A stretch of 46,201 nucleotides of DNA. Origin: Candidatus Aquicultor sp. Lineage in GTDB: Bacteria > Actinomycetota > Aquicultoria > Aquicultorales > Aquicultoraceae. Each line of letters starts with the position of its first letter. Position 1 is the stretch's first letter. Below are positions 4,541-45,418 of the stretch, piece after piece. The stretch lies in contig JAUXNY010000057.1 in the NCBI GenBank assembly GCA_030682615.1, positions 1-46,201 of the forward strand, given 5' to 3'. A program made the translations under genes and the position numbers. The notes beneath the pieces were generated by a model. The model was given only the letters and a program-made list of their open reading frames with translations, made no database searches and was not told the origin of the DNA.

Positions 4541-5047
4541 CTACGGAAGAGTTCTAAGGGGTGGGCAGGGGTCGCTCGGCGTACAGCCTTGTCCCGGGGG
4601 CCCATAATGGTCGCGGTTTTGGTCGCCAAAGCCCCAGCCTGGCTTGAATACTGTTATCGGCGGGCCTGGAGGACATGGCCTTGTCGTGGTCGTTGTCGGA
4701 CAGGGTTTCTTAGTTGTCGTGGTGGTCGGCGGACATGTAGTCGTTGTTGTCGATGGCGGACAAGTGGTCGTAGTAGTCGGCGGACATGTAGTCGGCGGCC
4801 TGGTGGTAGATGTCGTTGACGGCGGACAGGTCGTGCTGCTCGTAGTCGGACAGGTCGGACGCGTTGTAGTCGTCGTCGGCGGACGCGTAGTGCAGGTACT
4901 CGGCGGGCATGTGATGCACGTCGACGATTGCTGAACAGACGCCAAAGACCTGATCCTCGCCGCTCTCTCGCTCCCAGCATATACCGAAGATATTGGCACG
5001 CTTAAGGCTAGCAGCAAGATACAGAGAAGCACCAGCTTTTTCTTCAT
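4541..5047 (-). CDS. Secreted Thr/Pro/Cys repeat protein with a C-terminal GWGxGDxN motif
   Basis: The 168-residue protein starts MKKKLVLLCILLLALSVPIS, a clear Sec signal peptide (about 1-25). From about residue 43 to 125 it is a low-complexity tract of threonine runs separated by CPP or RPP units (for example TTTTTCPP). After that comes PGWGFGDQNRDHYGPPGQ, a motif recalled from other small exported actinobacterial proteins. Threonine runs suggest O-glycosylation and the regular cysteines suggest disulfide cross-linking or metal binding; both are inference. The DNA repeats are codon-imperfect, so the repeat is held at protein level. No lipobox, cell-wall sorting signal or C-terminal membrane helix is visible. 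The high antisense valine-rich reading frame is a shadow of this gene. Confidence 0.75.
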   Translation of the reverse strand: MKKKLVLLCILLLALSVPISSVYAGSERAARIRSLASVQQSSTCITCPPSTCTTRPPTTTTTRPTCPTTSSTTCPPSTTSTTRPPTTCPPTTTTTCPPSTTTTTCPPTTTTTKKPCPTTTTTRPCPPGPPITVFKPGWGFGDQNRDHYGPPGQGCTPSDPCPPLRTLP

Positions 5048-5410: not shown

Positions 5411-5502
5411 GGAGAGGTGGCGGAGTCCGGTTGAACGCGGCGGTCTTGAAAACCGTTAGAGGTGTGAGTCTCTCGGGGGTTCGAATCCCTCCCTCTCCGC
5501 CA
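5411..5502 (+). tRNA. tRNA-Ser(UGA)
   Basis: The acceptor stem GGAGAGG pairs with CCTCTCC at 5492-5498, the anticodon loop reads CTTGAAA (anticodon TGA), a long variable arm is present and the T loop is GGTTCGAATCC. The 3' CCA is encoded (5500-5502). This is one of four serine isoacceptors in the window. Confidence 0.95.
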
Positions 5503-5536
5503 AAAAGCCTCCTATTCAAGGCGGCTTTTCTCTTGT
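5503..5536 (+). terminator. Terminator after tRNA-Ser(UGA)
   Basis: AAAAGCC (5503-5509) pairs with GGCTTTT (5523-5529), with an extra inner CCT/AGG pairing, followed by a T-rich stretch ending TTGTTTTT. Confidence 0.65.
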
Positions 5537-5673
5537 TTTTCTTTCTCGATTTACCCGGACGAGCTGGTTGTTGTGACCTGCCCGAATATGGTGACTCGAG
5601 ATGTTGTCCCGGGTGGACAAAGTCCATCGCCTGCGGTATAGTAAATATCTGATTTTATCGCGTATAGCGGCCT

Positions 5674-5767
5674 GGAGAGATGGCCGAGTCGGTCGAAGGC
5701 GCTCGCCTGCTAAGCGAGTAGGGGGTTATAAACTCCCTCGAGGGTTCGAATCCCTCTCTCTCCGCCA
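5674..5767 (+). tRNA. tRNA-Ser(GCU)
   Basis: GGAGAGA at 5674 pairs with TCTCTCC at 5757-5763. The anticodon stem CTCGC/GCGAG encloses loop CTGCTAA, giving anticodon GCT at 5709-5711. A long variable arm and a canonical T arm follow, and CCA is encoded at 5765-5767. Confidence 0.95.
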
Positions 5768-5794
5768 TAATTTTTCTAGTTTAACGACTAGAAT

Positions 5795-5868
5795 GTGCCC
5801 GTAGCTCAGCTGGATAGAGTGTCTGACTACGAATCAGAAGGTCGGGGGTTCGAATCCCTCCGGGCACG
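5795..5868 (+). tRNA. tRNA-Arg(ACG)
   Basis: GTGCCCG at 5795-5801 pairs with CGGGCAC at 5861-5867. The anticodon stem TCTGA/TCAGA encloses CTACGAA (anticodon ACG), so A34 would be the TadA substrate; tadA lies about 5 kb downstream. No CCA is encoded after the discriminator G at 5868. The AT-richer accessory region begins directly downstream, and tRNA 3' ends are common integration sites. Confidence 0.95.
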
Positions 5869-12111: not shown

Positions 12112-12200
12112 GGAGGAGTCGCATAGTCCGGCCGAGTGCGGCGGTCTCGAAAACCGTTAGGCCCGTAAGGGTCTCGAGGGTTCAAATCCCTCCTCCTCCG
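12112..12200 (+). tRNA. tRNA-Ser(CGA)
   Basis: GGAGGAG pairs with CTCCTCC at 12193-12199, and the anticodon loop CTCGAAA gives CGA. A long variable arm is present and the T loop reads GGTTCAAATCC. The 3' CCA is not encoded. Confidence 0.94.
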
Positions 12201-12203
12201 CAG

Positions 12204-12226
12204 AAAAGCTCCCCGAGGAGCTTTTT
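12204..12226 (+). terminator. Terminator after tRNA-Ser(CGA)
   Basis: AAAAGCTCC (12204-12212) pairs with GGAGCTTTT (12217-12225) around a CCGA loop, followed by T and TTG. Confidence 0.8.
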
Positions 12227-12301
12227 CTTGTTTTGTCAAAAAGATGAAAATCAGGCGCCTACGTGTTAAAATGCTAATGCTTGAAATTTAATATAGGTTT
12301 C

Positions 12302-12391
12302 GGAGGAGTCGCATAGTTCGGCCTAGTGCGCGCGACTGGAAATCGCGTTGGCGTTAATAGCGCCTCGAGGGTTCGAATCCCTCCTCCTCCG
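12302..12391 (+). tRNA. tRNA-Ser(GGA)
   Basis: GGAGGAG (12302-12308) pairs with CTCCTCC (12384-12390). The anticodon loop CTGGAAA gives GGA. The D arm and T arm are near-identical to the preceding tRNA-Ser(CGA), pointing to a local duplication. CCA is not encoded. The SRP RNA begins three bases after the discriminator base, so the two are probably co-transcribed. Confidence 0.94.
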
Positions 12392-12394
12392 CAT

Positions 12395-12663
12395 GACCGT
12401 GCTAGGTGGGGAGGTAGCGGTGCCCTGTATCCGCAATCCGCTATAGCGGGACTGAATCCCTGCTCCAGGCTCCCCGGTTGTGAGGTCGGTTGTTACGCAA
12501 GTGGTGTTGAAGGCTGGGTCCTGCGCAACGGAAACTCGTGAACCCCGTCAGGTCCGGGAGGAAGCAGCGGTAAGCGGTATTTTCCGTGTGCCGTGGGGAA
12601 GCCTGGCCGGAGCTAACTACGTGGCAACGCTTGGGGCTGGATGTCAAAAGCAGGTGCACGGTC
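12395..12663 (+). ncRNA. ffs: Signal recognition particle RNA, large (Alu-domain) bacterial type
   Basis: GACCGTGC (12395-12402) pairs with GCACGGTC (12656-12663) to close the molecule. The 5' part (GGGGAGGTAGCGGTGCCCTG and the CGCAATCCGCTATAGC loop) is the Alu domain. The S-domain apex GTCAGGTCCGGGAGGAAGCA, followed by GCGG, near 12548 is the Ffh-binding signature. At about 269 nt this is the long form seen in Bacillus and Clostridia rather than the roughly 100-nt 4.5S type. It guides membrane protein targeting with Ffh. Confidence 0.95.
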
Positions 12664-28183: not shown

Positions 28184-28400
28184 ACCGGCTTGCGCTACGA
28201 ATCTCATATATGAGAAGATGATAGAAGAGGTGCGGGCCGTGCGTCAACCGGCCCCTAATTCTTACCTGTTTCTTTTACATGAAACTCGGCCTAAAACATG
28301 GCAATTAACCTATAGTGATGATTTCATGTTCATCGAAATGCGCTTGTTGAAAATTATCGTTAATGGTACGATTCCTTGTAGGGTTAAGGGGGGAGCCGGG
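28184..28400. other. Intergenic region before the YbaK gene
   Basis: An in-frame upstream extension of the YbaK gene runs through here to 28218 but lacks family similarity and coding bias. The promoter of the YbaK gene is expected here. Confidence 0.4.
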
Positions 28401-28877
28401 ATGAGAACTAGTGTCGATTTACACAATTTTCTGCAAATGCGTGAAATTCCTCACGAAATCAGCCTTGTCGAGATTTCCACAAGAACCGCAGCTCTCGCAG
28501 CCGATTCGCTCGGTTTGGATCGGTCTGAGGTGGGCAAGACCCTGATAATCGATGTAGACGGCAAGCCGGTTGTCGCCATTATTCCGGGGAATCGCCGCAT
28601 CGATATCCGCAAGCTCCGCACGCTCACGGGAGCGGGTAAGGTAAGAATGGTCGAGCCCGATGACGTCGTCAATCTCACCGGCTATGTGCTTGGCGGCACG
28701 CCACCGATAGCGCACGCGAACGAGATGCCGATATATCTCGACCACAGATTGCTCGGGATTCCGGTTCTCTACACGAGCGGCGGACAGATCAATACCATCT
28801 TGAAAATAAAACCCATCGACCTCATTGAAGTCGGGGGCGCGCAAATCGCCGACCTCGCCGACGATGGGAGAATCTAG
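28401..28877 (+). CDS. YbaK/EbsC-type aminoacyl-tRNA deacylase
   Basis: A trans-editing protein that hydrolyses mischarged tRNA (Cys- or Ala-tRNA-Pro in studied members). The 158 residues show the conserved catalytic lysine K46 in SEVGKTLIID, IPGNRRIDIRKLR, and GYVLGGTPPIAH with the GxxxP-like loop. AAGGGGGGA lies before the ATG at 28401. Substrate specificity cannot be told. Confidence 0.88.
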   Translation: MRTSVDLHNFLQMREIPHEISLVEISTRTAALAADSLGLDRSEVGKTLIIDVDGKPVVAIIPGNRRIDIRKLRTLTGAGKVRMVEPDDVVNLTGYVLGGTPPIAHANEMPIYLDHRLLGIPVLYTSGGQINTILKIKPIDLIEVGGAQIADLADDGRI

Positions 28878-29188: not shown

Positions 29189-30970
29189 ATGAGCATATTA
29201 ACCGTTAAAGACGGGCACTGCGCGGAGTGCTACTCGTGTATCCGCGTGTGCCCGGTAAAAGCGATAAAGATGGCCGCCGGCCGCATAGAGATTCTCGATG
29301 AGCGCTGCGTCTATTGCGGCCGCTGTTTCGTTACCTGCACCAAGGGATCGATTAGCCTCGGCGACGACCTCGACAGGGCGCTCGGCTTGCTGTCGTCCGG
29401 CCGGAAAACAGTTGCTATCCTGGCACCGGAATATCTCGCCTCGTTCTACCCGATGAATACGGCGCAGGTGCTCTTTCTGATCGAGCGGGCGGGTTTTTAC
29501 GGCTGTGAGGATACCATCCTAGGCGAGGAGATGGTCGCTCGCCACTACCTGCGGTATTTTGCCGGCCAGGCCGAGACGCCGGTCATACGCTCCACCTGTC
29601 CCGCCGCGACTTCCTGGATTGAAAAGTATTACCCGGCGCTCGCCGGCAAGCTCGCACCCGTCGCCACACCGATGGTCGCGCAGGCGAGGCTGGTAAAGCA
29701 GCTTTACGGAGATGATGTAGCGGTCGTCTACGCGACGCCCTGCATTGCGGCAAAACACGAGGCTAAGCTGGGCGATGAGGTCGACGCAGTCTTGACCTTC
29801 GATGATTTCAAGCAGTTGCTGAGGATGAGGTTCTTGCGGACGCAGGGCGACCTAGCGGTTAATGACGAGCCGAAGCCGGCAATCAGGCGCCGTTACTCGG
29901 TGCCCGGCGGTTTTCCTCGCCCGACAATCGCGCAGCACAGCATGCTCGACCCGGCGCTCATGGTCGTGCGCGGGGTTTCCGACATCGAGGGGCTGGCCGC
30001 GGCTATCGAGCGCGGCGAGATTGGCGCCAAGTTCATCGACATATTGACCTGTAACGGCTGCATCGACGGTCCTGCCATCGACACCAAGATCGGCATCCAC
30101 CTGCGCAAACAGGTGACCGAGCGCGCGTATAAGGAAGGTTTAGTCAAAGCCTCCAGGCAGCTCACCTTCGACCAGCTCGAACCGTACCTGCCGAAAATCG
30201 AGACATATAAATCCTTTGCCGGAAAGCAGGTCGAGTTACCGCTTCCTGACGACGAAGCCCTCAGGAGAATCTTGGCCGAGGGCGAGAAACATATGCCTCA
30301 GGACGAACTCGACTGCGGCGCTTGCGGTTACGATACCTGCCGCGAGGAAGCGGTCGCGATATACCAGGGGATTGCTGATTGGAGCATGTGCTTTCCGTTC
30401 CAGCGAAAAGTATATATGCGCATCATCAAGCAGCTCCAGGAGACCGCTGTGACTGACGGGCTGACGGGCGTCGCCAACCACAAAAGCTTCATCGAACGGC
30501 TGGGCGTAGAGTTCAACAGGGCACAGCGCTATGGCTCGGAGCTGTCGCTTATGATGGTCGACATCGATACCTTCAAGAGCATCAATGACACGCACGGCCA
30601 CCTCGCCGGGGATGAGACGCTAAAGGCTATCGCGAAGACGATAAAGGACAATATCCGCCAATCCGACTTCGCGGCGCGCTTCGGAGGCGATGAGTTCGCC
30701 TTGATTCTACCCGAAACCGATGTCATCAAGGCGCAGAGGGTCGGCGAGAAACTACGCCGCAGGGTCGAGGCGATGTCGATAAGCGTCGGCGCCGATACCA
30801 CCATCAATGTTTCGCTCAGTATCGGCCTCAGCTCGATTAATAAGAACATGCAAGACCCGTTGAGCCTTGTCAAGCGAGCGGACGAAGCGCTTTACGACGC
30901 GAAAAAGGCCGGTCGCAACCGGATGGTCGTAGCCGTCGATGAACCCGTCGAGCAGGCGGAAAAGGGGTAG
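29189..30970 (+). CDS. Ferredoxin-[FeFe]-hydrogenase-like-FeS-GGDEF fusion: putative redox/H2-sensing diguanylate cyclase
   Basis: A 593-residue soluble fusion. Residues 1-55 carry two [4Fe-4S] motifs (C11, C14, C17, C21 and C40, C43, C46, C50). Residues about 70-340 match the [FeFe]-hydrogenase large-subunit C-terminal domain: the L1 site is STCPAATSW (C137), L2 is TPCIAAKHE (C185) and L3 is TCNGCIDGP (C288, C291). All four cluster-ligand positions keep Cys, but the second L1 Cys used for proton transfer is Thr136 and L3 is one residue shorter, so hydrogenase catalysis is unlikely. Next comes an FeS domain with C376, C379, C384 and C401, then a GGDEF domain with RFGGDEF intact (499-503) and an inhibitory site RQSD (490-493). 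It should make cyclic-di-GMP in response to redox state or H2; that input is inference. The ATG 29189 has AAAGG upstream. Confidence 0.88.
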   Translation: MSILTVKDGHCAECYSCIRVCPVKAIKMAAGRIEILDERCVYCGRCFVTCTKGSISLGDDLDRALGLLSSGRKTVAILAPEYLASFYPMNTAQVLFLIERAGFYGCEDTILGEEMVARHYLRYFAGQAETPVIRSTCPAATSWIEKYYPALAGKLAPVATPMVAQARLVKQLYGDDVAVVYATPCIAAKHEAKLGDEVDAVLTFDDFKQLLRMRFLRTQGDLAVNDEPKPAIRRRYSVPGGFPRPTIAQHSMLDPALMVVRGVSDIEGLAAAIERGEIGAKFIDILTCNGCIDGPAIDTKIGIHLRKQVTERAYKEGLVKASRQLTFDQLEPYLPKIETYKSFAGKQVELPLPDDEALRRILAEGEKHMPQDELDCGACGYDTCREEAVAIYQGIADWSMCFPFQRKVYMRIIKQLQETAVTDGLTGVANHKSFIERLGVEFNRAQRYGSELSLMMVDIDTFKSINDTHGHLAGDETLKAIAKTIKDNIRQSDFAARFGGDEFALILPETDVIKAQRVGEKLRRRVEAMSISVGADTTINVSLSIGLSSINKNMQDPLSLVKRADEALYDAKKAGRNRMVVAVDEPVEQAEKG

Positions 30971-33844: not shown

Positions 33845-35206
33845 GTGACCGGGGTTAAAAGAAATTTTGTTAGCTTAAGTGAACTAAATACGAACACGTT
33901 TTATTACTTCATAGGCAGTCTTGTCTTCGGCAGCCTGCTCGCCCTGGCCGTCGTCTATCTCGGTACATACTTCTTCGACCTGGAGGCCGGCTACTTCTTT
34001 TTCTTCTTGCTTGCCGCCTCGGCGACGGCCACGATTTTTGTGGCGCTTATTCTCTTCAGATTCATGAGCCAGTCCGAGCATTTTAGGGCGAAGCAATCGT
34101 ACCACGTCCTCGAAATCACGCGAAAAACCCTGCCGCACCTGAGAAAAGGCTTGAGTATCGAGTCGGCGTCACAGGTCGTCGAGATAGTCTTCAACTACAC
34201 CGACGCGGTTGCGGTCTCGATAACCGACCGGACGACGATTCTGGCGTTTCACGGTGTCGGCAAAGACCATCACCTGCCGGGTAAGCCGATTCTAACCCGC
34301 GCGACCAAAGAGTCGATAGAGACCAATGCGACGCGGATTCTCGGTTCGAAAGCGGAAATCGGGTGCCCGGTCGTCAATTGCCAGCTGAAAGCGGCGGTGG
34401 TGGTGCCGCTTACGCAGATGGGAAAAGCGATAGGTTCTCTAAAATTTTATTATAACAACCCGTCGAAGCTGACGGAGAGCAGGATAGCGCTGGCCGAGGG
34501 CCTTGCGCAACTGCTGAGTACCCAGATAGAGCTCTCCGAACTCGACCGGCAGACCGAGCTCGCGTACCATGCTGAGCTGAGGGCGTTGCAGGCGCAAATA
34601 AACCCGCACTTTCTATTCAACACCCTCAACACCATCACGGCTTTTATCCGGACCGACCCGCAGAAGGCCCGCAAGCTGCTCATCCAGTTTTCGGACTTCT
34701 TCCGCAAGTCTCTGGAGTGGAAAGAGGGCTTCATCACGCTTGCGCAGGAACTCGACTATATCGCAACCTATCTGGTGCTGGAGAAGGCGCGGTTCGGCGA
34801 GCGCCTCAATATAAGTTTCGATATCGACCACGAGGCCCAGACCTGCATTCTACCGGGTCTGACCATCCAGCCTATCGTTGAAAACTCCATCAAGCACGGT
34901 TTCTGTGAAGAAAAGCCATTGGAGATTGAGCTAAAAGTCAAAATTGTCGATGATAATCTACAGATAACCGTCATCGACAACGGCAAAGGGATTGCTGAAG
35001 AAGAGCTAGACCAGGTGTTAAATATTGGTTATGGTAAGGGTATCGGGATTGGTCTAAGCAATGTCAACGAACGCCTGAAGGGCCTTTACGGGGAAGACCA
35101 CCAGATAACGCTCGAAAGCCGGCCCGGCGCGGGCACGACGGTTCACGTAAATATTCCCGTATCCAGGAGCGAAGAACATGAAGTTGAAAACACTTATAGT
35201 CGATGA
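33845..35206 (+). CDS. LytS-type sensor histidine kinase with GAF domain
   Basis: Two membrane helices at the N-terminus (about residues 15-75), a GAF-like domain (about 90-225), then a His_kinase module of the LytS class with the phosphorylation site QINPHFLFNTLNTI (H255) and an ATPase with NSIKHG (N box) and GKGIGIGLSNVNERL (G box). It pairs with the LytTR regulator downstream, whose start lies inside this gene. GTG 33845 is used, with only a weak ribosome-binding site. The extracellular loop between the helices is short, so the signal is more likely sensed by the GAF domain or in the membrane. Confidence 0.9.
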   Translation: MTGVKRNFVSLSELNTNTFYYFIGSLVFGSLLALAVVYLGTYFFDLEAGYFFFFLLAASATATIFVALILFRFMSQSEHFRAKQSYHVLEITRKTLPHLRKGLSIESASQVVEIVFNYTDAVAVSITDRTTILAFHGVGKDHHLPGKPILTRATKESIETNATRILGSKAEIGCPVVNCQLKAAVVVPLTQMGKAIGSLKFYYNNPSKLTESRIALAEGLAQLLSTQIELSELDRQTELAYHAELRALQAQINPHFLFNTLNTITAFIRTDPQKARKLLIQFSDFFRKSLEWKEGFITLAQELDYIATYLVLEKARFGERLNISFDIDHEAQTCILPGLTIQPIVENSIKHGFCEEKPLEIELKVKIVDDNLQITVIDNGKGIAEEELDQVLNIGYGKGIGIGLSNVNERLKGLYGEDHQITLESRPGAGTTVHVNIPVSRSEEHEVENTYSR

Positions 35207-35924
35207 TGAGGCGCCGGCGCGCTCCGAGCTCCGGTATATGCTCGAGAAAGCGCCGGATGTTCATGTAGTCGGTGAGGCGACAAACGCGAGCGAAGCTCTG
35301 GAGTTGATTCGCGCCTTAAACTACGACCTCGTCTTCATAGACATACAGATGCCGGGCCTAAGCGGGCTCGATGTCGTTGCTGCCCTGAAGGATTTGGAGC
35401 AGCTGCCGGACGTCGTCTTCGTGACCGCGTACGGGGAGTACGCCGTCCAAGCCTTTGAGCTGGATGCCGTCGACTACCTGGTCAAACCGATAGACGAAGA
35501 CCGTCTGATGAAAGCCATCAGCAAGGTGACCAAGCACCGTGAGACCAGGCCGGCGCCGCAAGCCCCGGCCAAAGCCGAGCCGGTCATCGAGATAGAGAGA
35601 ATACCGGTCGAGAGCAAAGGCAAGACGCTTCTCTTGACACTCCAGGACGTAGTCTATATATCGAGCAGAAACGATATCGTCTTCGTGCACACGCAGGACA
35701 ACACGTACATAACCAAATTTACCCTTAAGACCCTGGAGGATCGCTTGAAGAACAAGTCTTTCCTGCGGGTCCACCGCAGCTACATAGTCAATCTTGCGCA
35801 CGTCATCGAGATCGTGCCGATGTACGGGCGAAGCTATATTCTAAAGGTTCGCAGCACCCAAAAGAACGAGATCCCGGTAAGCCGCAGGCGGGGTCAAAAG
35901 CTCAAAGCTATGCTCGGCATGTAA
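35178..35924 (+). CDS. LytTR-family response regulator
   Basis: Receiver domain 1-120 with the phospho-acceptor D55 (FIDIQMPG), acidic pocket D9-D10, and K in VKPI. A Pro/Ala-rich linker (about 125-145) leads to a LytTR DNA-binding domain (about 150-245) with SKGKTLLLTLQDVVYISSRN and FLRVHRSYIVNLAHVIEI. LytTR proteins bind pairs of 9-bp direct repeats about one to two helical turns apart. The next gene on this strand is fhs, 667 bp away, and the gap holds several repeats of that kind; control of the Wood-Ljungdahl cluster is therefore a reasonable hypothesis. Confidence 0.92.
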   Translation: MKLKTLIVDDEAPARSELRYMLEKAPDVHVVGEATNASEALELIRALNYDLVFIDIQMPGLSGLDVVAALKDLEQLPDVVFVTAYGEYAVQAFELDAVDYLVKPIDEDRLMKAISKVTKHRETRPAPQAPAKAEPVIEIERIPVESKGKTLLLTLQDVVYISSRNDIVFVHTQDNTYITKFTLKTLEDRLKNKSFLRVHRSYIVNLAHVIEIVPMYGRSYILKVRSTQKNEIPVSRRRGQKLKAMLGM

Positions 35925-36105
35925 CGGCCAATGTGCCGAAAATGCACGTGGAATCGCTTGCTAACTTTTTCGCTTACTCCAAGAATGATGCGCTCACCTC
36001 TAAAATCGACCGTTTGCTAAATCATTGTTGCCGTGTATGAAATCATCAGTATAAACTTAAGGCTTAACACGGTCATTTGTGGGGCGCATAAACCGGTTGA
36101 ACAAA

Positions 36106-36137
36106 ATACGTAACAATGTTGCAGTTTTGTTACGTAT
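36106..36137 (+). promoter_or_regulatory. Inverted repeat ATACGTAACAA ... TTGTTACGTAT
   Basis: Perfect 11-bp arms (36106-36116 and 36127-36137) around 10 bases, without a T tract suitable for termination. It lies about 180 bases after the LytTR gene. Confidence 0.55.
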
Positions 36138-36342
36138 ACGTATTAGCACGTATAGCTTACACGGGACGCAGGCCTCGAAAGCGACTTAGAGTTATCCGAA
36201 ACCGTTTAATCCTATATTTTAACGCTCGCGGGTCGATTCGAACCGTTTACCAATTTAAAGTTGCTGTTGCTTGAAGCTTGGCCTATCTTTAAGGATTGCT
36301 TCAAATGGCTTGACTGGTGTGCGGGTTTGAGCTATATTATTA

Positions 36343-36382
36343 CATGGTTTGTAGTTACTGTTACGTACTGTTACAAACCATG
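36343..36382 (+). promoter_or_regulatory. Inverted repeat with internal tandem TACTGTTAC pair
   Basis: CATGGTTTGTA (36343-36353) and TACAAACCATG (36372-36382) are perfect 11-bp arms. Between and into them lie TACTGTTAC at 36356-36364 and 36366-36374, a 10-base period or one helical turn. Tandem same-face repeats are the usual LytTR binding layout. Confidence 0.55.
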
Positions 36383-36484
36383 GAACCCTGAAGAAACCAT
36401 GACGAGCGCGTCCTACGAGGACCCCTGACGCATGTCTGTATGTAGTCCTTGGCTGCGCGCACTGTTGCGGCAACCAAGTTAAAA

Positions 36485-36504
36485 ATTAACATACTCATGT
36501 TAAT
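36485..36504 (+). promoter_or_regulatory. ATTAACAT-ACTC-ATGTTAAT palindrome upstream of fhs
   Basis: Perfect 8-bp arms around 4 bases, 87 bases before the fhs start. The size and symmetry fit a dimeric repressor or activator such as a Crp/Fnr or Rex-like protein, but the half site is not a match I can name. Confidence 0.5.
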
Positions 36505-36591
36505 AGCAAGACAATCGATTTCCTCCGGCCCCATAGCGGAGGGTTGAAGACTTAGGCTAAAAACAATAGGTAGGAGCACCAAGGAGGTTGT

Positions 36592-38379
36592 ATGGGAGCA
36601 AAAGAAAAGTACGAACCGCGTTCAATGGACCCGACCAAGTTCAAGGATTATCAGATAGCTCAGGAAGCTGAGAAACATCTGCCGACGACTGAGGAATGGA
36701 TTGACAAGCTGGGGCTCGAGAAAGAGGAGATGATTCCCTACGGGAAGACTCCGAGACTCGACTTCATCAAAATCATGAATCGGCTCAAAGACAAGCCGGA
36801 CGGAAAGTACATCGAAGTTACCGCCATCACCCCAACCCCTCTCGGCGAGGGTAAAACCACGGTATCCATGGGTCTCGTTCAAGGCCTCGGCGTGAAGGGT
36901 ATCAATGTGGGTGGCGCGCTTCGCCAGCCATCGGGCGGCCCGACGATGAACGTTAAGGGTACGGCGGCCGGCGGCGGCAATGCCCTGCTAATCCCGATGA
37001 CCGAGTTCTCGCTCGGTCTTACCGGTGACATCAACGACATAATGAACGCACATAACCTCGCCATGGTCGCGCTTACCTCGCGCTACCAGCACGAGTGCAA
37101 CTACACCGACGAGGAGCTCACCAGGCGCGGTCTAAAACGCCTCGACATCGACCCGAAAAACGTCGAGATGGGCTGGATCATCGACTTCTGCGCGCAGGCG
37201 CTTCGCAATATCACAATCGGCCTTGGCGGCAAGAAAGACGGCTATCCGATGTCATCGCGGTTTGGTATCGCGGTCGGTTCCGAGCTGATGGCGATTCTCG
37301 CCGTCTCTAAAGACCTGGCCGACATGCGCGACCGCCTGGGCAAGATCACCGTCGCTTACGACCGGACGGGCAAGCCTATCACCACATCCGACCTCGATGT
37401 AGCCGGCGCCATGACGGCGTGGATGCGTAATACCATCAACCCGACGCTCTGTTACTCGGTCGAGGGCCAGCCGGTCCTAATCCACGCGGGCCCGTTCGCA
37501 AATATCGCCATCGGACAGAACTCGATTATCTCCGACCGTTTGGCGCTGAAACTCTTTGATTACACCGTAACCGAGTCCGGCTTCGCCGCCGACATCGGCT
37601 TCGAGAAGTTCTGGAACGTCAAGTGCCGCCTCAGCGGTAATGTCCCGAATGTCTCCGTTATCGTTGCGACCATCAGGGCGATGAAGATGCACGGAGGCGG
37701 CCCGAAAGTCGTGCCGGGACGCCCGCTCCCTGATGAGTACACCAGAGAGAATCTCGACTTGGTCGAAAAGGGCTTCGAGAACCTGCGCCACATGGTAGGC
37801 GTCGTCAAGAAGTCGGGTATCGTCCCGGTCGTCTGCGTAAACGCGTTCTACACCGACACCCAGGCCGAGACCGACCTGGTCAAGAAACTCTGCGACGAGA
37901 TAGGTGTTCGTTGCGCGAGGTCCGATCACTGGATGTATGGCGGCGAGGGCGCGGCCGAGCTGGCGGACACCGTCATGGATGCCGCCAACGAGCCATCCAA
38001 CTACAAACCGCTTTATCCGCTGGAGATGCCGCTGCGCCAGCGTGTTGAGATGATCGCTAAGGAAGTCTACGGAGCGGACGGCGTTAGCTTCTCACCGGTT
38101 GCCGAGGAGAAAGCGAAGCGCTTCGAGTCAGACCCGCAGTTCGCGGACTACCAGACCATGATGGTCAAGACGCACCTGAGCCTCTCGCACGACCCGACTC
38201 TCAAGGGTGTGCCGAAGGGCTGGACGTTGCCCATTCGCGACATCCTGGTCTACAGCGGTGCGAAGTTCCTCTGCCCGATGGCGGGCGACATCAGCCTGAT
38301 GCCTGGAACCGCATCCGACCCGGCTTACAGAAGAGTCGACGTCGACGTAGAGACCGGCGAGGTCAAGGGATTGTTCTAG
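36592..38379 (+). CDS. fhs: Formate-tetrahydrofolate ligase
   Basis: Makes 10-formyl-THF from formate, THF and ATP, the second step of the methyl branch of the Wood-Ljungdahl pathway. The P-loop [11 protein letters not shown] is at about 80-90, and [23 protein letters not shown] and the NLHLTGD-like [11 protein letters not shown] follow. At 595 residues it is about 40 longer than common forms, mainly at the N-terminus. It begins the gene cluster that continues to acsB. AAGGAGG lies 5 bases before the ATG. Formate dehydrogenase is not in this window. Confidence 0.97.
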
Positions 38380-38403
38380 GAGCAAATTTTACGCTAGAGC
38401 AAA

Positions 38404-38431
38404 TGTAGCTTGTAGCTTGTAGCTTGTAGCT
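38404..38431 (+). repeat. Tandem heptamer repeat TGTAGCT x 4
   Basis: Four perfect copies of TGTAGCT in a row directly precede a strong hairpin. Tandem heptamers can vary in copy number by slippage. Confidence 0.85.
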
Positions 38432-38460
38432 TGGGCGGGCTTATGAAGGCCCGCCCAAGC
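38429..38460 (+). terminator. Strong hairpin between fhs and acsV
   Basis: GCTTGGGCGGGC (38429-38440) pairs perfectly with GCCCGCCCAAGC (38449-38460) around 8 bases. It is followed by AAAAC rather than Ts, so it may attenuate or stabilise messages instead of ending them; the heptamer tract overlaps its left base. Confidence 0.55.
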
Positions 38461-38580
38461 AAAACTTGTAGCCGGGTCAAGGTTTTCATGTTAATAGCCG
38501 CACTCAAGCGCGGCCTGAGCTGTGACAGGAGCTTTGCGAAAGAGCTTGAATCCAGCGGAAGAAAGTCGGTAAGTTTCAAT

Positions 38581-40545
38581 ATGCCTAAGGTTTATTTCTA
38601 CCCCGACAACAGAGAAGTCGAAGTAGAAGAAGGGGAAAACATCATCCGGGCGGCGATGCTGGCCGGGGTTCATATAAATGCATCATGTGGCGGAACGGGC
38701 ACCTGCGGAAAGTGTCGTGTCGTCGTCGACAAGGGTGAGACAATCAAACATGCGACCGCGAAGCTCACACCCGAGCAAGTCGAGCAGGGCTACGTGCTGG
38801 CATGCACTACGCAGGTCAAAAGTGACATAGAAGTGCGCATACCGGTCGAGACCCAGATGGGCGATAGCAGGGCGGCTTTAGAGAGAGAGCACCGGCCGGT
38901 TAGCCGTGGGTCGGTTTTGACGAGCAAAGATCTGAGCGAGCTTTTCGGCGATTTCGAATTAGAACCCGCGACGCACAGGTACTACATCGAAATCGCGCCG
39001 CCGACACTCGAAGACAACCTCAGCGACCTCGAACGACTCAAGCGTGAGCTGACGCGCACCCATAAGGTCGGCGAATTCACGGTCGATCTCGATTGCCTGC
39101 GCCAGATGGCGGTAAGGCTTCGCGAAGCCGACTGGAAGGTCACCGCGACTATCATGGAGGGCGCCGACGGCGAATGCCCGCGTCTTATCCGGCTCGATTC
39201 GGGCGACCGCGTGCAAACGCATTACGGACTGGCGGTCGACATCGGCACCACCTCGGTCTATGTCGAGCTTATCGACCTCAATACCAGGGAATCGCTTGGA
39301 AGGGTGTCTGAATATAACGCCCAGGTCAGCAGTGGCGAAGATATAATATCGCGCATCGTCTATTCACTCAAGAACGACGGGCTCGAGAGATTGCAGTCGC
39401 TGGTAGTCCAAACGATTAATGGTCTTATAGACAGGCTCCTTGATAAAACAGGCGTTCAGCGGGATGACATCGTCTACATGGTCGCCGCCGGCAACACGAC
39501 GATGGTCCATCTCTTCTACGGAATCAACGCTCGCTACATTCGCGAGGAACCTTATATCCCGACGGTCAACTTTACCCCCACAGTTAAAGCGTCCAATCTC
39601 GGCGTAAAGATCGCCGACGGCGCCCGCATCTATTGCATCCCGGGACGGGCGAGCTACGTGGGCGGCGACATCACCTCGGGCCTTTTGGCCTCGGGCGTGT
39701 ATAAAACGGATAAACTCACCCTCTATATAGATGTCGGCACCAACGGCGAGATGGCGCTGGGCAATGCCGAGTGGCTGCTATCTTGCGCGTGCTCGGCGGG
39801 CCCCGCTTTCGAGGGCGGCTCGGTAAAGCACGGCATGCGTGCGGTAAAAGGCGCGATAGAGACCGTCCGCATCAGCACCGAGACGCTTGAGCCCATGATT
39901 TTGACGATCGGCCAGACCAAGCCGAAGGGTGTCTGCGGCTCGGGCCTGATTGACGCACTGGCGGAACTCTTCTTGACCGGCATCATCGACGAAAGAGGAA
40001 AGTTCAAGCTCGAGCTTGGGCACCCGAGAATACGCGAAGGCGGAGGCCAGGGCGAGTACGTGCTTGTCTGGGCCGACGAGTCGGCGACGAAAGAGGATAT
40101 CGTGATCACCGAGGCCGACATCGACAACCTCATCCGCACCAAGGGCGCGATTTACGCCGGCATCACGACGCTTCTAGATTCGATGCAGATGCCGGTCGAA
40201 GCGATAGAGCGGGTCTATATCGCCGGCGGCTTCGGGCGCTACCTGGAGCTTGACCAAGCGATTACCATCGGGCTTTTACCCGAGTTTTCTGAGGATAAAG
40301 TGATGTACGTGGGCAACGGCTCTCTGATGGGCGCGCATTTAGTACTCCTGTCGCAGTCCGCGCGCCGTTCGGCTAAGGATATCGCGCAACGGATGACGTA
40401 TCTGGAGCTGAGCACACACCCCGGCTTCATGGATAATTACGTCTCGGCGCTGTTTCTGCCGCACACCGATATCGGCGCGTTTCCGTTGGTAGCGCAAAGA
40501 GTGAAAGAGCGTAGCGGCGTCTATGGCAGCCGGGATGTTCGCTAA
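38581..40545 (+). CDS. acsV: AcsV-type corrinoid activation/regeneration protein
   Basis: Reduces the inactive Co(II) state of the corrinoid iron-sulfur protein with ATP. The N-terminal [2Fe-2S] ferredoxin domain (1-100) has C36-x5-C42-x2-C45 and C75. A middle domain (about 110-210) is followed by an ASKHA ATPase (about 215-640) with GLAVDIGTTSVYVELID, YIDVGTNGEMALGN and CSAGPAFEGGSVKHGMRAVKG. At 654 residues it is full length. ATG 38581 gives the family start MPKVYFYPDN; the longer frame above it passes through the hairpin and repeat and is rejected. It lies in the Wood-Ljungdahl cluster between fhs and cooC. Confidence 0.94.
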   Translation: MPKVYFYPDNREVEVEEGENIIRAAMLAGVHINASCGGTGTCGKCRVVVDKGETIKHATAKLTPEQVEQGYVLACTTQVKSDIEVRIPVETQMGDSRAALEREHRPVSRGSVLTSKDLSELFGDFELEPATHRYYIEIAPPTLEDNLSDLERLKRELTRTHKVGEFTVDLDCLRQMAVRLREADWKVTATIMEGADGECPRLIRLDSGDRVQTHYGLAVDIGTTSVYVELIDLNTRESLGRVSEYNAQVSSGEDIISRIVYSLKNDGLERLQSLVVQTINGLIDRLLDKTGVQRDDIVYMVAAGNTTMVHLFYGINARYIREEPYIPTVNFTPTVKASNLGVKIADGARIYCIPGRASYVGGDITSGLLASGVYKTDKLTLYIDVGTNGEMALGNAEWLLSCACSAGPAFEGGSVKHGMRAVKGAIETVRISTETLEPMILTIGQTKPKGVCGSGLIDALAELFLTGIIDERGKFKLELGHPRIREGGGQGEYVLVWADESATKEDIVITEADIDNLIRTKGAIYAGITTLLDSMQMPVEAIERVYIAGGFGRYLELDQAITIGLLPEFSEDKVMYVGNGSLMGAHLVLLSQSARRSAKDIAQRMTYLELSTHPGFMDNYVSALFLPHTDIGAFPLVAQRVKERSGVYGSRDVR

Positions 40546-40673
40546 GGGCTTGGTTGTTGATATTTGGATTTAGAGCTCTTAATCTCAAGTTGAGGCCGCA
40601 GAAATTGGTAGAGAATACCAGCGGGTGGAGTTTTAATTTAGCTGTATGTGTAGCAAGTGGAAGGTGTTAAGTT

Positions 40674-41435
40674 TTGAGCTTTACAATCGCGGTCGCCGGT
40701 AAGGGCGGCACAGGAAAGACGACATTGACGAGCATGATCATCGGTCATCTCCTGCGAACGGGGAAGACGCCGGTATTTGCCGTCGACGCGGACGCTAATA
40801 TAAATCTAAACGAGCAGCTCGGCGTAGAGGTCGATTCGACCATCGGCGGGATGCGCGAGGAATTAAAGGTCAAGATCGGGGCCAACGAGGTTCCGGCCGG
40901 CATGACCAAAGATATGTACATGGAATATTTGCTCCAGGATACCGTGGTCGAAAGTTCCGGATTCGACCTTCTTGTCATGGGTCGCCCGGAGGGGCCCGGA
41001 TGCTATTGTGCCGCTAACAACATGCTCAGGCGCTACATCGAAATACTCGCGAAGAACTACCCGTATGTAGTCATCGATAACGAAGCCGGAATGGAGCACT
41101 TGAGCCGTCGCACGACCCAGAAGATAGACCTGTTGCTCCTGGTCTCCGAGCCGAGCCCGATTGGGATTATGACTGCGGCCCGGATTCGCGATCTCGCTAA
41201 AGAGATGGAAGTAAGCGTCAAGCAAGTCGGTCTCATTATCAATAGAGTCAATGGGGAACTACCCGCCAGTCTTGCAGAAGAGGCGGAGAACCGAGGTCTG
41301 GAAGTGCTGGGAACGGTCCCGCTCGACGACAGCGTCTTCGAGCATGCGCTCAACCATATTCCGGCGGTTAAGCTTCCTGAAAGTTCGCCTGCGGTTCAGG
41401 CAATAGATAATATACTTGGCAAGTTGGACATTTAA
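40674..41435 (+). CDS. cooC: CooC-type nickel-insertion ATPase for CODH
   Basis: A MinD/ParA-like P-loop ATPase that loads nickel into the CODH C-cluster. It has the deviant Walker A GKGGTGKTT (9-17), the CxC motif GPGCYCAANN (C110, C112) at the dimer interface used for metal binding, and DADANINL as the switch. The 253-residue protein starts at a TTG with GGAAGGTG upstream. It stands two genes before the CODH gene (folD and acsD in between), which supports its role in CODH/ACS maturation. Confidence 0.94.
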   Translation: MSFTIAVAGKGGTGKTTLTSMIIGHLLRTGKTPVFAVDADANINLNEQLGVEVDSTIGGMREELKVKIGANEVPAGMTKDMYMEYLLQDTVVESSGFDLLVMGRPEGPGCYCAANNMLRRYIEILAKNYPYVVIDNEAGMEHLSRRTTQKIDLLLLVSEPSPIGIMTAARIRDLAKEMEVSVKQVGLIINRVNGELPASLAEEAENRGLEVLGTVPLDDSVFEHALNHIPAVKLPESSPAVQAIDNILGKLDI

Positions 41436-41451
41436 CCAAGGAGGAATGTGA

Positions 41452-42321
41452 ATGACGGCTAAAATTATTGATGGTAAAGCGATATCGGCCCAGATTCGGG
41501 CTGAGCTTGTCGAAGAGGTCAAGAAGCTCCAAGCGGAAACCGGTGTTACCCCGGGTCTCGCTGTGGTTCTGGTCGGCGAGGACCCGGCTTCCAAGGTCTA
41601 TGTCGGCCAAAAGGAGAAAGCTTGCGAAGAGCTCGGACTAGTCTCGAAGAAGTTTGTTCTTTCGGTAGACACATCCGAGCAAGAGCTGCTCGACCTCGTT
41701 GCGAAGTTAAACAACGACCCGGAAGTCGATGGTATCCTGGTTCAGTTGCCGCTGCCTAAGCAGATAGACGAGAACAAAGTCATTGCGGCTATCGACCCCG
41801 ACAAAGATGTCGACGGGTTCCATCCGGTAAACGTCGGTCGTTTAGTAATAGGAACAGCGGGCTTTAAGCCTTGCACTCCGTATGGCGTTATCCACCTGCT
41901 AAAAAGGTCTAACGTTCAGCTTGCGGGCGCCGAGGCTGTTGTCGTGGGCCGGAGCAATATCGTCGGCAAGCCGGTCGCGCTGATGCTCCTGCAGGAGAGC
42001 GCTACCGTTACCGTCTGTCACTCGAAGACTAAAGACCTCGGCGAAGTATGCCGCCGCGCGGATGTGCTCGTCGTTGCGACGGGGCGCCCGAACATGATCA
42101 CCGCGGATATGGTAAAAGACGGCGTAGTCGTAATCGACGTCGGTGTCAACCGCCTCGATACCGGCAAACTCTGCGGCGACGTCGATTTTGAGGCGGTCTC
42201 GCAGAAGGCTTCCGCTATTACCCCGGTTCCGGGTGGCGTAGGCCCGATGACCATTGCCATGTTGATGTACAACACGGTAAACTCAGCAAGACGCCGCGCC
42301 GGTGTTCCGGCTCTTGCATAG
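41452..42321 (+). CDS. folD: Methylenetetrahydrofolate dehydrogenase/methenyl-THF cyclohydrolase
   Basis: Bifunctional enzyme of the methyl branch. The catalytic lysine K54 lies in [13 protein letters not shown], the substrate segment QLPLPKQID and the cofactor-binding [17 protein letters not shown] are intact, and the end [17 protein letters not shown] is typical. It is 289 residues and follows cooC by 16 bases with AAGGAGG before the ATG. Together with fhs it carries formate to methylene-THF; methylene-THF reductase is not in the window. Confidence 0.97.
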
Positions 42322-42407
42322 TGCCGGGCACGACCGGGTGCAAACCCGGTGCTTGTGCGGCATGGGTTGCGCACAACGTTAGCGTAATCAGCACCCGTGA
42401 TGGGTGC
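42322..42407 (+). promoter_or_regulatory. Two stable hairpins between folD and acsD
   Basis: A long stem spans 42322-42362: TGCCG with CGGCA outside, and ACCGGGT with ACCCGGT inside. A second stem, GCACCC/GGGTGC, lies at 42391-42407. No T tract follows either one, so transcription through them, with mRNA processing or altered stability, is more likely than termination. Confidence 0.5.
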
Positions 42408-42454
42408 GGTATATATAGACTATAAAAGGAAGTTTCAAAGAAGGGGGAGAACAT

Positions 42455-43396
42455 ATGGCAATTCAGGCACCGACTGAATCATACACCGGTAAGATCAGGG
42501 AATTAGTCTTGGGTTCCGATACCCAAGTGGCCGTCGGCGGCGAGAACACACTGCCGTTTTACGGATTTGAAGGCAACATTCCCAACGGGCCAAAAATCGC
42601 GATGGAGGTATTCGATACCGAGCCGGTTGGTTGGGCGGACGAACTTCAAGCGGTTATCGGCGATGTATGGGGAGACCCGGTCGCGTGGGCGAAGAAGTGC
42701 GAGAGCGAGTTTGGCGCGGACATGATATGTCTGCAGCTCGCCGGGACCGACCCGAATGGCGCCAACAGGAGCCCCGAGGAAGCGGTCGCGACCGTCAAGG
42801 CTGTTGTGGACGCGGTGAAGATTCCGGTAATCATCTATGGCAGCGGCAACGCGGACAAAGATAGTGAAGTGTTGAAAGCGGTAGCCGAGGCTACCCAGGG
42901 CAAAAATGTCGTCATCGGCCCGGCCGTTGAGGATAACTACAAATCAGTCGCCGCGGCGGCGATGGGCTTTAATGCGAAGGTAGCAGGCGAGACCCCAATC
43001 GACGTCAACATGGCTAAGCAGCTTAATATTCTCATGAGCAACCTCGGAGTTCCCGTCGAGAGCATTCTTATCGATCCGTCGACCGGCGCTCTCGGGTACG
43101 GTCTCGAGTACTGTTTCTCGGTCAACGAGCGTATCAAACTCGCCGCGCTGACCCAGAACGACAACATGCTCCAATCACCGACCATCAGCAACCTCGGCAA
43201 AGAGGTCTGGAAGGCCAAAGAGGCCAAAATCACGCAGGCAGAGGCGCCGCAGTGGGGCGACCAGAAGAAGCGCGGCATCATCTGGGAGACGCTGACCGCT
43301 ATCTCCGTCATGATGGCCGGCGCGGACCTGCTCATTATGAGACATCCGGAGTCGGTCAAGCTCATCAAGCAGACCATCGCTGAGCTTATGGCTTAA
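42455..43396 (+). CDS. acsD: Acetyl-CoA decarbonylase/synthase delta subunit (corrinoid Fe-S protein small subunit)
   Basis: The small, TIM-barrel subunit of the corrinoid iron-sulfur protein that carries the methyl group from methyl-THF to acetyl-CoA synthase. The family stretches GGENTLPFYGFEGNIPN, EVFDTEPVGWADELQAVIGDVWGDP, and DPSTGALGYGLEYCFSV are present in 313 residues. The large subunit (AcsC) is not in the window and may lie downstream of acsB. AAGGGGGAGAAC precedes the ATG. Confidence 0.94.
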   Translation: MAIQAPTESYTGKIRELVLGSDTQVAVGGENTLPFYGFEGNIPNGPKIAMEVFDTEPVGWADELQAVIGDVWGDPVAWAKKCESEFGADMICLQLAGTDPNGANRSPEEAVATVKAVVDAVKIPVIIYGSGNADKDSEVLKAVAEATQGKNVVIGPAVEDNYKSVAAAAMGFNAKVAGETPIDVNMAKQLNILMSNLGVPVESILIDPSTGALGYGLEYCFSVNERIKLAALTQNDNMLQSPTISNLGKEVWKAKEAKITQAEAPQWGDQKKRGIIWETLTAISVMMAGADLLIMRHPESVKLIKQTIAELMA

Positions 43397-43477
43397 GATA
43401 GCAGGCATTATTTAAGGAAACACGTGGCCGACCGAAGTCGGGCCGCAAGATCACTAGATCGAAAGTAAGGAGAGACT

Positions 43478-45418
43478 ATGTCAGACAAGATCAGAAGCGT
43501 GGATCCGGCAACGATAGAGATGCTGGAGAAAATCGGCGACATGTCGACCATGTTCAGCCGAGCTGAGGAGATGAAGGCTTGTACCTTCGGCTCCGAAGGC
43601 AGCTGCTGCCGGGTTTGCGCCATGGGCCCATGCCGCCTCGGCGGGAAGAGCAAAAACGGCAGGGAAAAAACAGGTGTTTGCGGTGCGACGATGCACACCG
43701 TTGCCGCCCGCAATCTCGCGCGTTCCGTTGCCGCCGGTGCGTCCGCACATGCGGACCATGGTCGCGCAGTAGCCATGACGTTCCTCGCTGCCGCTAAAGG
43801 TGAGGCTCCGGGCTACGGCATAAAAGACGAAGCAAAGTTGATGGTGGTAGCCGGGCATTTCGGTATCGAGACCGAAGGCAAGACCGTCCAGGAAATCGCC
43901 ATCGCTCTCGGCGAAGCCGCTCTCGCGGAGTACGGCAAACAAACCGGCACCCCGATGATGTATGTCAAACGTGCGACCGAGAAGCGTAAGAAAATATGGG
44001 AAGAACTCCAAATATTCCCGCGCGGGTTCGACCGCGAGGTCGTTCAGCTAATGCACCAAACGCACGCCGGAACCGACCAGGACGCCGAGCATATTCTGAT
44101 GTCATCGGTTCGCTGTGCGTTGGCTGACGGTTGGGGCGGCTCCATGATGGCGACCGACCTTTCGGACATCATGTTCGGTACCCCGAAACCGCTTCGCGCT
44201 GAGGCGAATCTCGGTATCTTGAAAGAAAAAGAAGTAAACATCATCCTCCACGGTCACGAGCCGCTTCTCTCGGAGAAGATCGTTGATCTTGCGACCAGCC
44301 CGGAGATGATAGAGTATGCCAAGAGCAAGGGTGCCGAGGGCATTACGCTCGGCGGTATCTGCTGTACCGGTAACGAGGTCCTGATGCGTCGCGGCGTTGG
44401 CCCGGCCGGTAACGTTCTCCAGCAGGAGCTCGCTATCGCGACCGGCGTCGTCGATGCCATGATCGTCGACGTACAGTGCGTTTTCCAGGGTCTCGTCGAG
44501 GTCGCTGAGAAGTACCATACGAAAGTAATCACGACCAACGAGCGCGCGATGATGACCGGTGCGGAGCACATCCAGTTCGATGAGCACAACGCGATAGAGA
44601 CTGCCAAGACCATCGTCAAGGCGGCTGTCGATAACTTCGCAAACCGCAAGGGCGATGTCTTCATCCCCGACCATAAGAAACCGATGATCGCCGGCTTCAG
44701 CCACGAGTACATCAAGTACATGCTCGGCGGCAAGTTCCGCGGCTCGTTCCGTCCGCTAAATGATGCCATCATCAGCGGTCGCATTCAGGGTGCGGTGGCC
44801 ATCGTCGGGTGTAATAACCCGCGTACCACGCACGATGACTCGCACAGGTTCCTCGTCGAGGAGTTTATTAAACGCGATATCCTCGTCGTTATGACGGGTT
44901 GTGCCGCGCAAGGCGCCGCGAAAGCCGGCTACATGACGCCGGAGACGATGGAGATGGCGGGTCCGGGTCTCAAGGAGATCTGCGAGACCGTCGGTATCCC
45001 GCCGGTGCTCCACCTCGGCTCCTGCGTCGACAATAGCCGCATACTTACCGTCCTCAACGAGATCGTTACTGAAGGCGGCCTTGGCGAAGATGTGAATGAC
45101 CTGCCGGCTGTCGGCCTGGCTCCCGAGTGGTATTCGGAGAAAGCGCTCACCATCGCACTCTACTGTGTCGCCAGCGGCGCGGATGTCATCTTCGGCGGCG
45201 TCGGGGCACCGTATCGCGCGAGCAGCGAGATGATGAGACTTACGACCGAGGGCTTTAAAGAGAAGTTCGGCGCGACGTTTGAATTCTACCCGACAAAAGA
45301 GGAGATTCTCGAAGCGACGATCGCAAAGATTCAAGCGAAGAGAAAAGCTCTAGGTATTGATACCCAGAAAGAAAGAGTCCTCTTCGATATGGAGATGAGG
45401 AGGGAACTGAATGTCTAA
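43478..45418 (+). CDS. acsA: Anaerobic carbon monoxide dehydrogenase catalytic subunit
   Basis: The nickel CODH (CooS/AcsA type) interconverting CO and CO2. The N-terminal cysteines ACTFGSEGSCCRVCAMGPCR hold the B and D clusters. C-cluster ligand motifs are all present: HGHEPLLSEKI, GICCTGNEVL, VDVQCVFQG, VGCNNPRTT, TGCAAQGAAKAG and GSCVDNSR. At 646 residues it is full length. Its last eight bases overlap the acsB start, fitting the bifunctional CODH/ACS complex rather than a stand-alone energy-yielding CooS. AAGGAGAG precedes the ATG. Confidence 0.97.
   Translation: MSDKIRSVDPATIEMLEKIGDMSTMFSRAEEMKACTFGSEGSCCRVCAMGPCRLGGKSKNGREKTGVCGATMHTVAARNLARSVAAGASAHADHGRAVAMTFLAAAKGEAPGYGIKDEAKLMVVAGHFGIETEGKTVQEIAIALGEAALAEYGKQTGTPMMYVKRATEKRKKIWEELQIFPRGFDREVVQLMHQTHAGTDQDAEHILMSSVRCALADGWGGSMMATDLSDIMFGTPKPLRAEANLGILKEKEVNIILHGHEPLLSEKIVDLATSPEMIEYAKSKGAEGITLGGICCTGNEVLMRRGVGPAGNVLQQELAIATGVVDAMIVDVQCVFQGLVEVAEKYHTKVITTNERAMMTGAEHIQFDEHNAIETAKTIVKAAVDNFANRKGDVFIPDHKKPMIAGFSHEYIKYMLGGKFRGSFRPLNDAIISGRIQGAVAIVGCNNPRTTHDDSHRFLVEEFIKRDILVVMTGCAAQGAAKAGYMTPETMEMAGPGLKEICETVGIPPVLHLGSCVDNSRILTVLNEIVTEGGLGEDVNDLPAVGLAPEWYSEKALTIALYCVASGADVIFGGVGAPYRASSEMMRLTTEGFKEKFGATFEFYPTKEEILEATIAKIQAKRKALGIDTQKERVLFDMEMRRELNV

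Follow-up and report, generated by a model that had tools for sequence, protein, structure and literature searches.

The fusion gene and its neighbourhood

A gene encoding a 593-amino-acid fusion of an Fe-S sensor part with a diguanylate cyclase was identified at positions 29189-30970 on the forward strand of the window, which is the whole stretch of DNA analysed (46,201 nucleotides) and forms one contig of the 2.1 Mb genome of Candidatus Aquicultor sp. The gene was characterized by its open reading frame, Pfam, orthologues, AlphaFold2, Foldseek and dN/dS. The sequence AAAGG lies just 5' of the ATG at 29189, and the same start position is found in the orthologues. A promoter scan gave nothing above chance.

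All parts of the gene are read on the forward strand. Two [4Fe-4S] ferredoxin motifs (C11/C14/C17/C21 and C40/C43/C46/C50) are encoded at 29210-29362 and are matched above cut-off by the Pfam model Fer4_10 at residues 8-50. They are followed by a hydrogenase-like Fe_hyd_lg_C domain (residues 73-295; 29405-30073), which matches PF02906 with 110.7 bits against a cut-off of 22.1 (E 1.2e-31) and is linked to [FeFe] hydrogenases by Foldseek, and by a C4 Fe-S domain (residues 374-403; 30308-30397; PF04060, E 7e-9) with the pattern Cx2Cx4Cx16C formed by C376, C379, C384 and C401. The C-terminal part is a GGDEF diguanylate cyclase domain (residues 420-578; 30446-30922), for which the PF00990 match (164.8 bits, E 1.8e-48) covers model positions 1-161 of 161. 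Its active-site motif GGDEF (residues 499-503; 30683-30697) is preceded by the I-site RQSD (residues 490-493; 30656-30667). The RxxD inhibitory site is an optional feature of the GGDEF family. A single predicted helix (residues 402-419), encoded together with the first residues of the GGDEF domain at 30392-30448 (AlphaFold2/DSSP), joins the C4 domain to the cyclase. In the AlphaFold2 model of the protein (mean pLDDT 86, pTM 0.67), the C4 domain is directly continuous with the stalk helix of the cyclase, and this single model was matched by Foldseek to [FeFe]-hydrogenases (E 2.5e-18) as well as to diguanylate cyclases (E 3.6e-19). A PAS domain of the M2f type was not matched after the C4 domain, which ends at residue 403, the GGDEF domain beginning at 420. 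The domain order proposed in an earlier note made from the sequence (two ferredoxin motifs, Fe_hyd_lg_C, an additional C4 Fe-S domain and GGDEF) was confirmed, with all Pfam matches over their cut-offs.

The upstream neighbour (28218-28877, forward strand) encodes a YbaK-like aminoacyl-tRNA editing domain (PF04073), and a YbaK-like gene lies upstream of the fusion gene in 23 of 31 Aquicultoria relatives. Downstream on the same strand (33845-45418) lie a LytS/LytR-like pair, in which Pfam identifies a histidine kinase and a LytTR regulator, and a Wood-Ljungdahl cluster composed of fhs, RACo, cooC, folD, acsD-like and cooS-like genes. RACo was assigned by Pfam, and the other Wood-Ljungdahl genes were named on visual inspection of their translations. 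The order ask, asd, helicase, YbaK-like gene, fusion gene, LytS/LytR-like pair, fhs, RACo, cooC and folD is retained across distant families, with losses and insertions, even where the fusion proteins share about 41% identity, which shows that the fusion gene has long been associated with central carbon genes. The tie to the Wood-Ljungdahl pathway claimed earlier stands as synteny, kept also in distant families; this order is no proof of a functional tie.

Other features of the window include a secreted-looking predicted protein consisting mostly of Thr/Pro/Cys repeats (TTTTRPPTTCPP...; 4541-5047, reverse strand), a large bacterial SRP RNA (12397-12661, forward strand) and five tRNA genes at 5411-5868 and 12112-12391.

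The hydrogenase-type site and the genomic context

Catalytic [FeFe] hydrogenases from the phylum of the host, group A and group B yardsticks and three HydS-type proteins served as references for the H-domain. In the alignments, the H-cluster ligand positions of the fusion protein are occupied by C137, C185, C288 and C291. The L1 motif RSTCP (residues 134-138; 29588-29602) contains C137 at the ligand position and Thr136 at the position of the proton-transfer cysteine, the L2 motif TPCIAAK (residues 183-189; 29735-29755) contains C185 at the ligand position and Ala188 at the position of K358 of CpI, and the L3 motif CNGC (residues 288-291; 30050-30061) is of the CxxC and not the CxxxC type, one residue shorter than in the catalytic enzymes. 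The four ligand cysteines, the Thr136 replacement and the shortened L3 had been described in the earlier note and are all seen in the alignments; Ala188 had not been mentioned there.

CxxC is found at L3 in all GGDEF-linked sequences, whereas CxxxC is found in every catalytic enzyme compared and in the three HydS-type proteins. The K358 position, which was numbered through the alignment to hydrogenases other than CpI and the published numbering, is occupied by Lys in 4 of 28 aligned orthologues and by Ala, Gln, Met, Val, Arg, Trp or Tyr in the others. All proteins with a CxxC L3 form one clade in the H-domain tree (support 0.996), which HydS adjoins with a support of just 0.63. Loss of the proton-transfer cysteine alone is not decisive, since HydS enzymes often lack this residue and still bind the H-cluster (PMC10055695).

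The NCBIfam models of [FeFe] hydrogenases scored far under their cut-offs (group B1, 139 of 450 bits; group A, 69 of 406 bits). A check of the maturases, suggested in the earlier note, had a negative outcome: HydG and HydF were under cut-off in all 36 Aquicultoria genomes, with a Thermotoga maritima control over cut-off, and HydE was under cut-off in the genome carrying the locus. An H-cluster is therefore unlikely in the fusion protein. Catalytic [FeFe] hydrogenase identity was rejected because of the CxxC spacing at L3, the K358 position that is not kept and the absence of HydG and HydF from the class, and the protein is not filed as an [FeFe] hydrogenase.

[NiFe] hydrogenases are present in Aquicultoria, and H2 could act on the fusion protein only indirectly, via the electron pool. 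One [NiFe] hydrogenase large subunit (L114; G000:C77:2500-5000) contains a single in-frame TGA at the C-terminal ligand motif (DP-TGA-MACAVH); this pattern, as in selenocysteine-containing [NiFeSe] enzymes, recurs in many Aquicultoria genomes. The genome carrying the locus also encodes further GGDEF proteins and seven PilZ domains, so that a c-di-GMP message would be readable in the host.

Distribution and conservation

The gene was searched for in 36 genomes of Aquicultoria, the class of Candidatus Aquicultor, including its own. The sensor part was clearly matched in 31 genomes, with E values of 1e-56 or lower. The same domain order, which the earlier note had proposed to look for elsewhere, recurs in nearly full-chain orthologues in 29 of the 36 genomes, and a partial match alone was found in two (G027 and G030). 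Two more genomes (G034 and G035) carry a diverged form whose GGDEF motif is degenerate, and neither form was found in three of the 36. One contig scan gave only two close Aquicultor relatives; the named near-identical ones are from Candidatus Aquicultor primus and an Actinomycetota metagenome-assembled genome. Among 396 genomes sampled from the phylum, each Aquicultoria genome with a PF02906 match carries exactly one, which is the fusion gene or its divergent form; a second PF02906 protein was not found in any Aquicultoria genome of this sample.

The four H-domain cysteines, the cysteines of the C4 domain, R134, R490 and D493 of the I-site and the GGDEF motif at 499-503 are invariant in 28 orthologues, and the ferredoxin cysteines are at least 90% conserved. 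The C4 domain and the intact GGDEF domain with its RxxD site, as first read from the sequence, are upheld by this conservation. Purifying selection acts on the chain, whose dN/dS over the whole length, in comparison with close orthologues, is 0.08-0.11. A pseudogene was rejected on this ratio and on the recurrence of the chain in related genomes. A chance fusion, misassembly or chimera was excluded because the same chain is present in independent assemblies.

Outside Aquicultoria, proteins of the family f55 show the same domain order with RGDQF or GGDQF in place of GGDEF. They are placed among the Aquicultoria proteins in the H-domain tree with moderate support, so that a transfer involving f55 is possible. 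Degenerate motifs with a retained RxxD were observed in the relatives L090-L092 and L095-L097, comprising RGDQF or GGDQF in three f55 genomes, GEDNF in G012 and GSDTF in G034 and G035. A shift from cyclase activity to c-di-GMP binding is possible for these proteins. Such degenerate motifs in related lineages indicate that the cyclase output is not essential everywhere. A scan of viral contigs with the family alignment gave matches on the GGDEF side only, and a GGDEF fusion of the sensor part was absent from the proteins examined in six of 12 matching records of a plasmid collection.

Related sensors and the proposed function

The best named match found for the fusion protein is a HydS-type protein of Ruminococcus albus (WP_013483411.1; E 1e-37, 31%). 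R. albus HydS and Thermoanaerobacterium HfsB contain the same order of two ferredoxin motifs, Fe_hyd_lg_C and a C4 Fe-S domain. However, the L3 of HydS is CxxxC, its K358 position is Lys, its C-terminus is of PAS type and a phosphatase is encoded by a separate gene, whereas the fusion protein combines a CxxC L3 and an Ala in place of K358 with a fused GGDEF domain, in a genome free of maturases. HydS and HfsB are putative sensory [FeFe] hydrogenases and presumed regulators of redox metabolism; deletion of hfsB in Thermoanaerobacterium raised the ethanol yield, which points to redox-linked regulation (PMC5707799, PMC11837493). As far as the sequence can tell, the fusion protein functions like HydS/HfsB, in agreement with the earlier view of a sensor, and not an H2 enzyme, with a GGDEF output. 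Tam-HydA of Thermoanaerobacter mathranii (sub-class M2e) likewise contains ferredoxin clusters, an H-domain and a C-terminal Cx2Cx4Cx16C motif, but it binds the H-cluster, has low H2 activity and has no described GGDEF domain (PMC6984386).

Another output was observed in one Actinomycetota genome (G205), where two proteins, L093:710-2914(-) and L094:88-2274(+), carry the same sensor part with a CxxC L3, within the same clade of 0.996 support, fused to a histidine kinase. They differ from the fusion protein in this output, in the Lys at the K358 position and in the presence of canonical [FeFe] hydrogenases in their genome, and are possibly members of HydDB group [FeFe] C1. HydDB links [FeFe] C1-C3 only to kinases, chemotaxis and phosphatases, and its putative diguanylate cyclase-linked group is [NiFe] 2c, in which a hydrogenase-type input is likewise thought to feed c-di-GMP, but which consists of [NiFe] enzymes of another protein family (PMC5037454). 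In Bhr-DGC of Vibrio cholerae, an iron-based redox/O2 domain ahead of GGDEF also controls the cyclase, but this domain is an O2-responsive, non-haem diiron hemerythrin without Fe-S clusters (PMC8846402). A 2022 review of c-di-GMP sensors gives haem, flavin, hemerythrin and disulfides as redox inputs and does not mention iron-sulfur or hydrogenase inputs (PMC8846402). No described [FeFe]/GGDEF fusion was found in the literature searched, which lay mostly outside subscription journals. The fusion is considered a new form of HydS-like sensor, because HydDB has no cyclase-linked [FeFe] class and the review no Fe-S input.

The preferred reading, held at a probability of roughly 0.6, is that the protein is a cytoplasmic Fe-S sensor of the electron state with a diguanylate cyclase output, its cluster occupancy, electron donor, direction of switching, cyclase activity and target all being putative. 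Ferredoxin is used by pyruvate oxidoreductase and by the Wood-Ljungdahl pathway. Electrons from this low-potential pool would pass into the two ferredoxin clusters and reach equilibrium with one [4Fe-4S] cluster ligated by C137, C185, C288 and C291. The hydrogenase fold around this cluster would no longer hold a diiron subsite and would form a maturase-free, cubane-only module, although these cysteines could instead hold a labile cluster or no cluster at all. Next to the output domain, the C4 cluster would join the same equilibrium as the last cluster of the relay. The redox state of these clusters may move the short helix 402-419 and with it the geometry of the cyclase dimer, which would set the level of c-di-GMP synthesis, and the I-site would provide product feedback.

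Counted in favour of this reading are the domains with their invariant ligands, the loss of H-cluster features (L1 Cys to Thr, the K358 position and the CxxC L3), the absence of a second PF02906 protein from the class and the missing maturases, together with the C4 domain that runs into the stalk helix and the retained order with Wood-Ljungdahl genes. The nearest named relative being of HydS type, the HfsB deletion phenotypes (PMC5707799), the intact, invariant GGDEF and I-site, the other GGDEF proteins and the seven PilZ domains are counted for it as well. The earlier suggestion that electron or H2 status is passed on to c-di-GMP is retained in its electron part, which fits and would apply as described above; its H2 part is not supported, in view of L3, the K358 position and the maturases.

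The cyclase may instead be switched by loss or conversion of an exposed Fe-S cluster, and not by reversible electron transfer, in a sensor of O2, NO or oxidative damage. A single soluble chain with many clusters would suit such a role, and there are known Fe-S and diiron sensors that work in this way, such as the O2-inhibited Bhr-DGC (PMC8846402). This explanation is unlikely, as a hydrogenase fold retained in full, together with both ferredoxin motifs, suggests electron entry and the neighbouring genes give no indication of oxidative stress. A reversed role, in which GTP or c-di-GMP bound by the GGDEF domain or its I-site gates electron flow through the Fe-S clusters, or in which the chain is a c-di-GMP receptor, would agree with the RxxD kept in the relatives with degenerate GGDEF. 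It appears still less probable, because the motif is intact and invariant across the set of 28 orthologues to which this protein belongs, implying that cyclase activity has been kept. Binding of CO, or of some other carbon-metabolism ligand, to a non-canonical, CxxC-ligated cluster is quite improbable: the conserved gene cluster also includes CODH-like genes and residues such as R134, P161 and G241/P243 of the pocket are invariant, but a cluster with four cysteine ligands has no obvious open site. A true H2 sensor, in which H2 would act on the cyclase through an H-cluster in the manner suggested for HydS, was rejected as the leading idea and is very improbable, the retained ligand cysteines, the HydS proteins without the proton-transfer cysteine and the use of H2 by the host through [NiFe] hydrogenases being opposed by the CxxC L3, Ala188 and the missing maturases.

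The chances are about even for a wider interpretation: a hydrogenase fold without its diiron centre would have become a maturase-free Fe-S module, marked by the CxxC L3 and Cx2Cx4Cx16C, with exchangeable GGDEF and histidine kinase outputs, and in Aquicultoria it would represent a first Fe-S input to c-di-GMP, linked to the low-potential electron pool of the Wood-Ljungdahl pathway. Proteins with the CxxC signature should not be counted as hydrogenases from a Pfam match alone. The fusion also provides a natural test of the role that an H-domain has once the diiron site is gone, a question not settled in work on HydS. If the reading is true, a class-wide, single-copy chain of uncultured Wood-Ljungdahl Actinomycetota would show that c-di-GMP signalling in anaerobes can respond directly to electron supply at the level of ferredoxin. 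This subsurface class probably keeps the fusion to report the electron supply of the cell.
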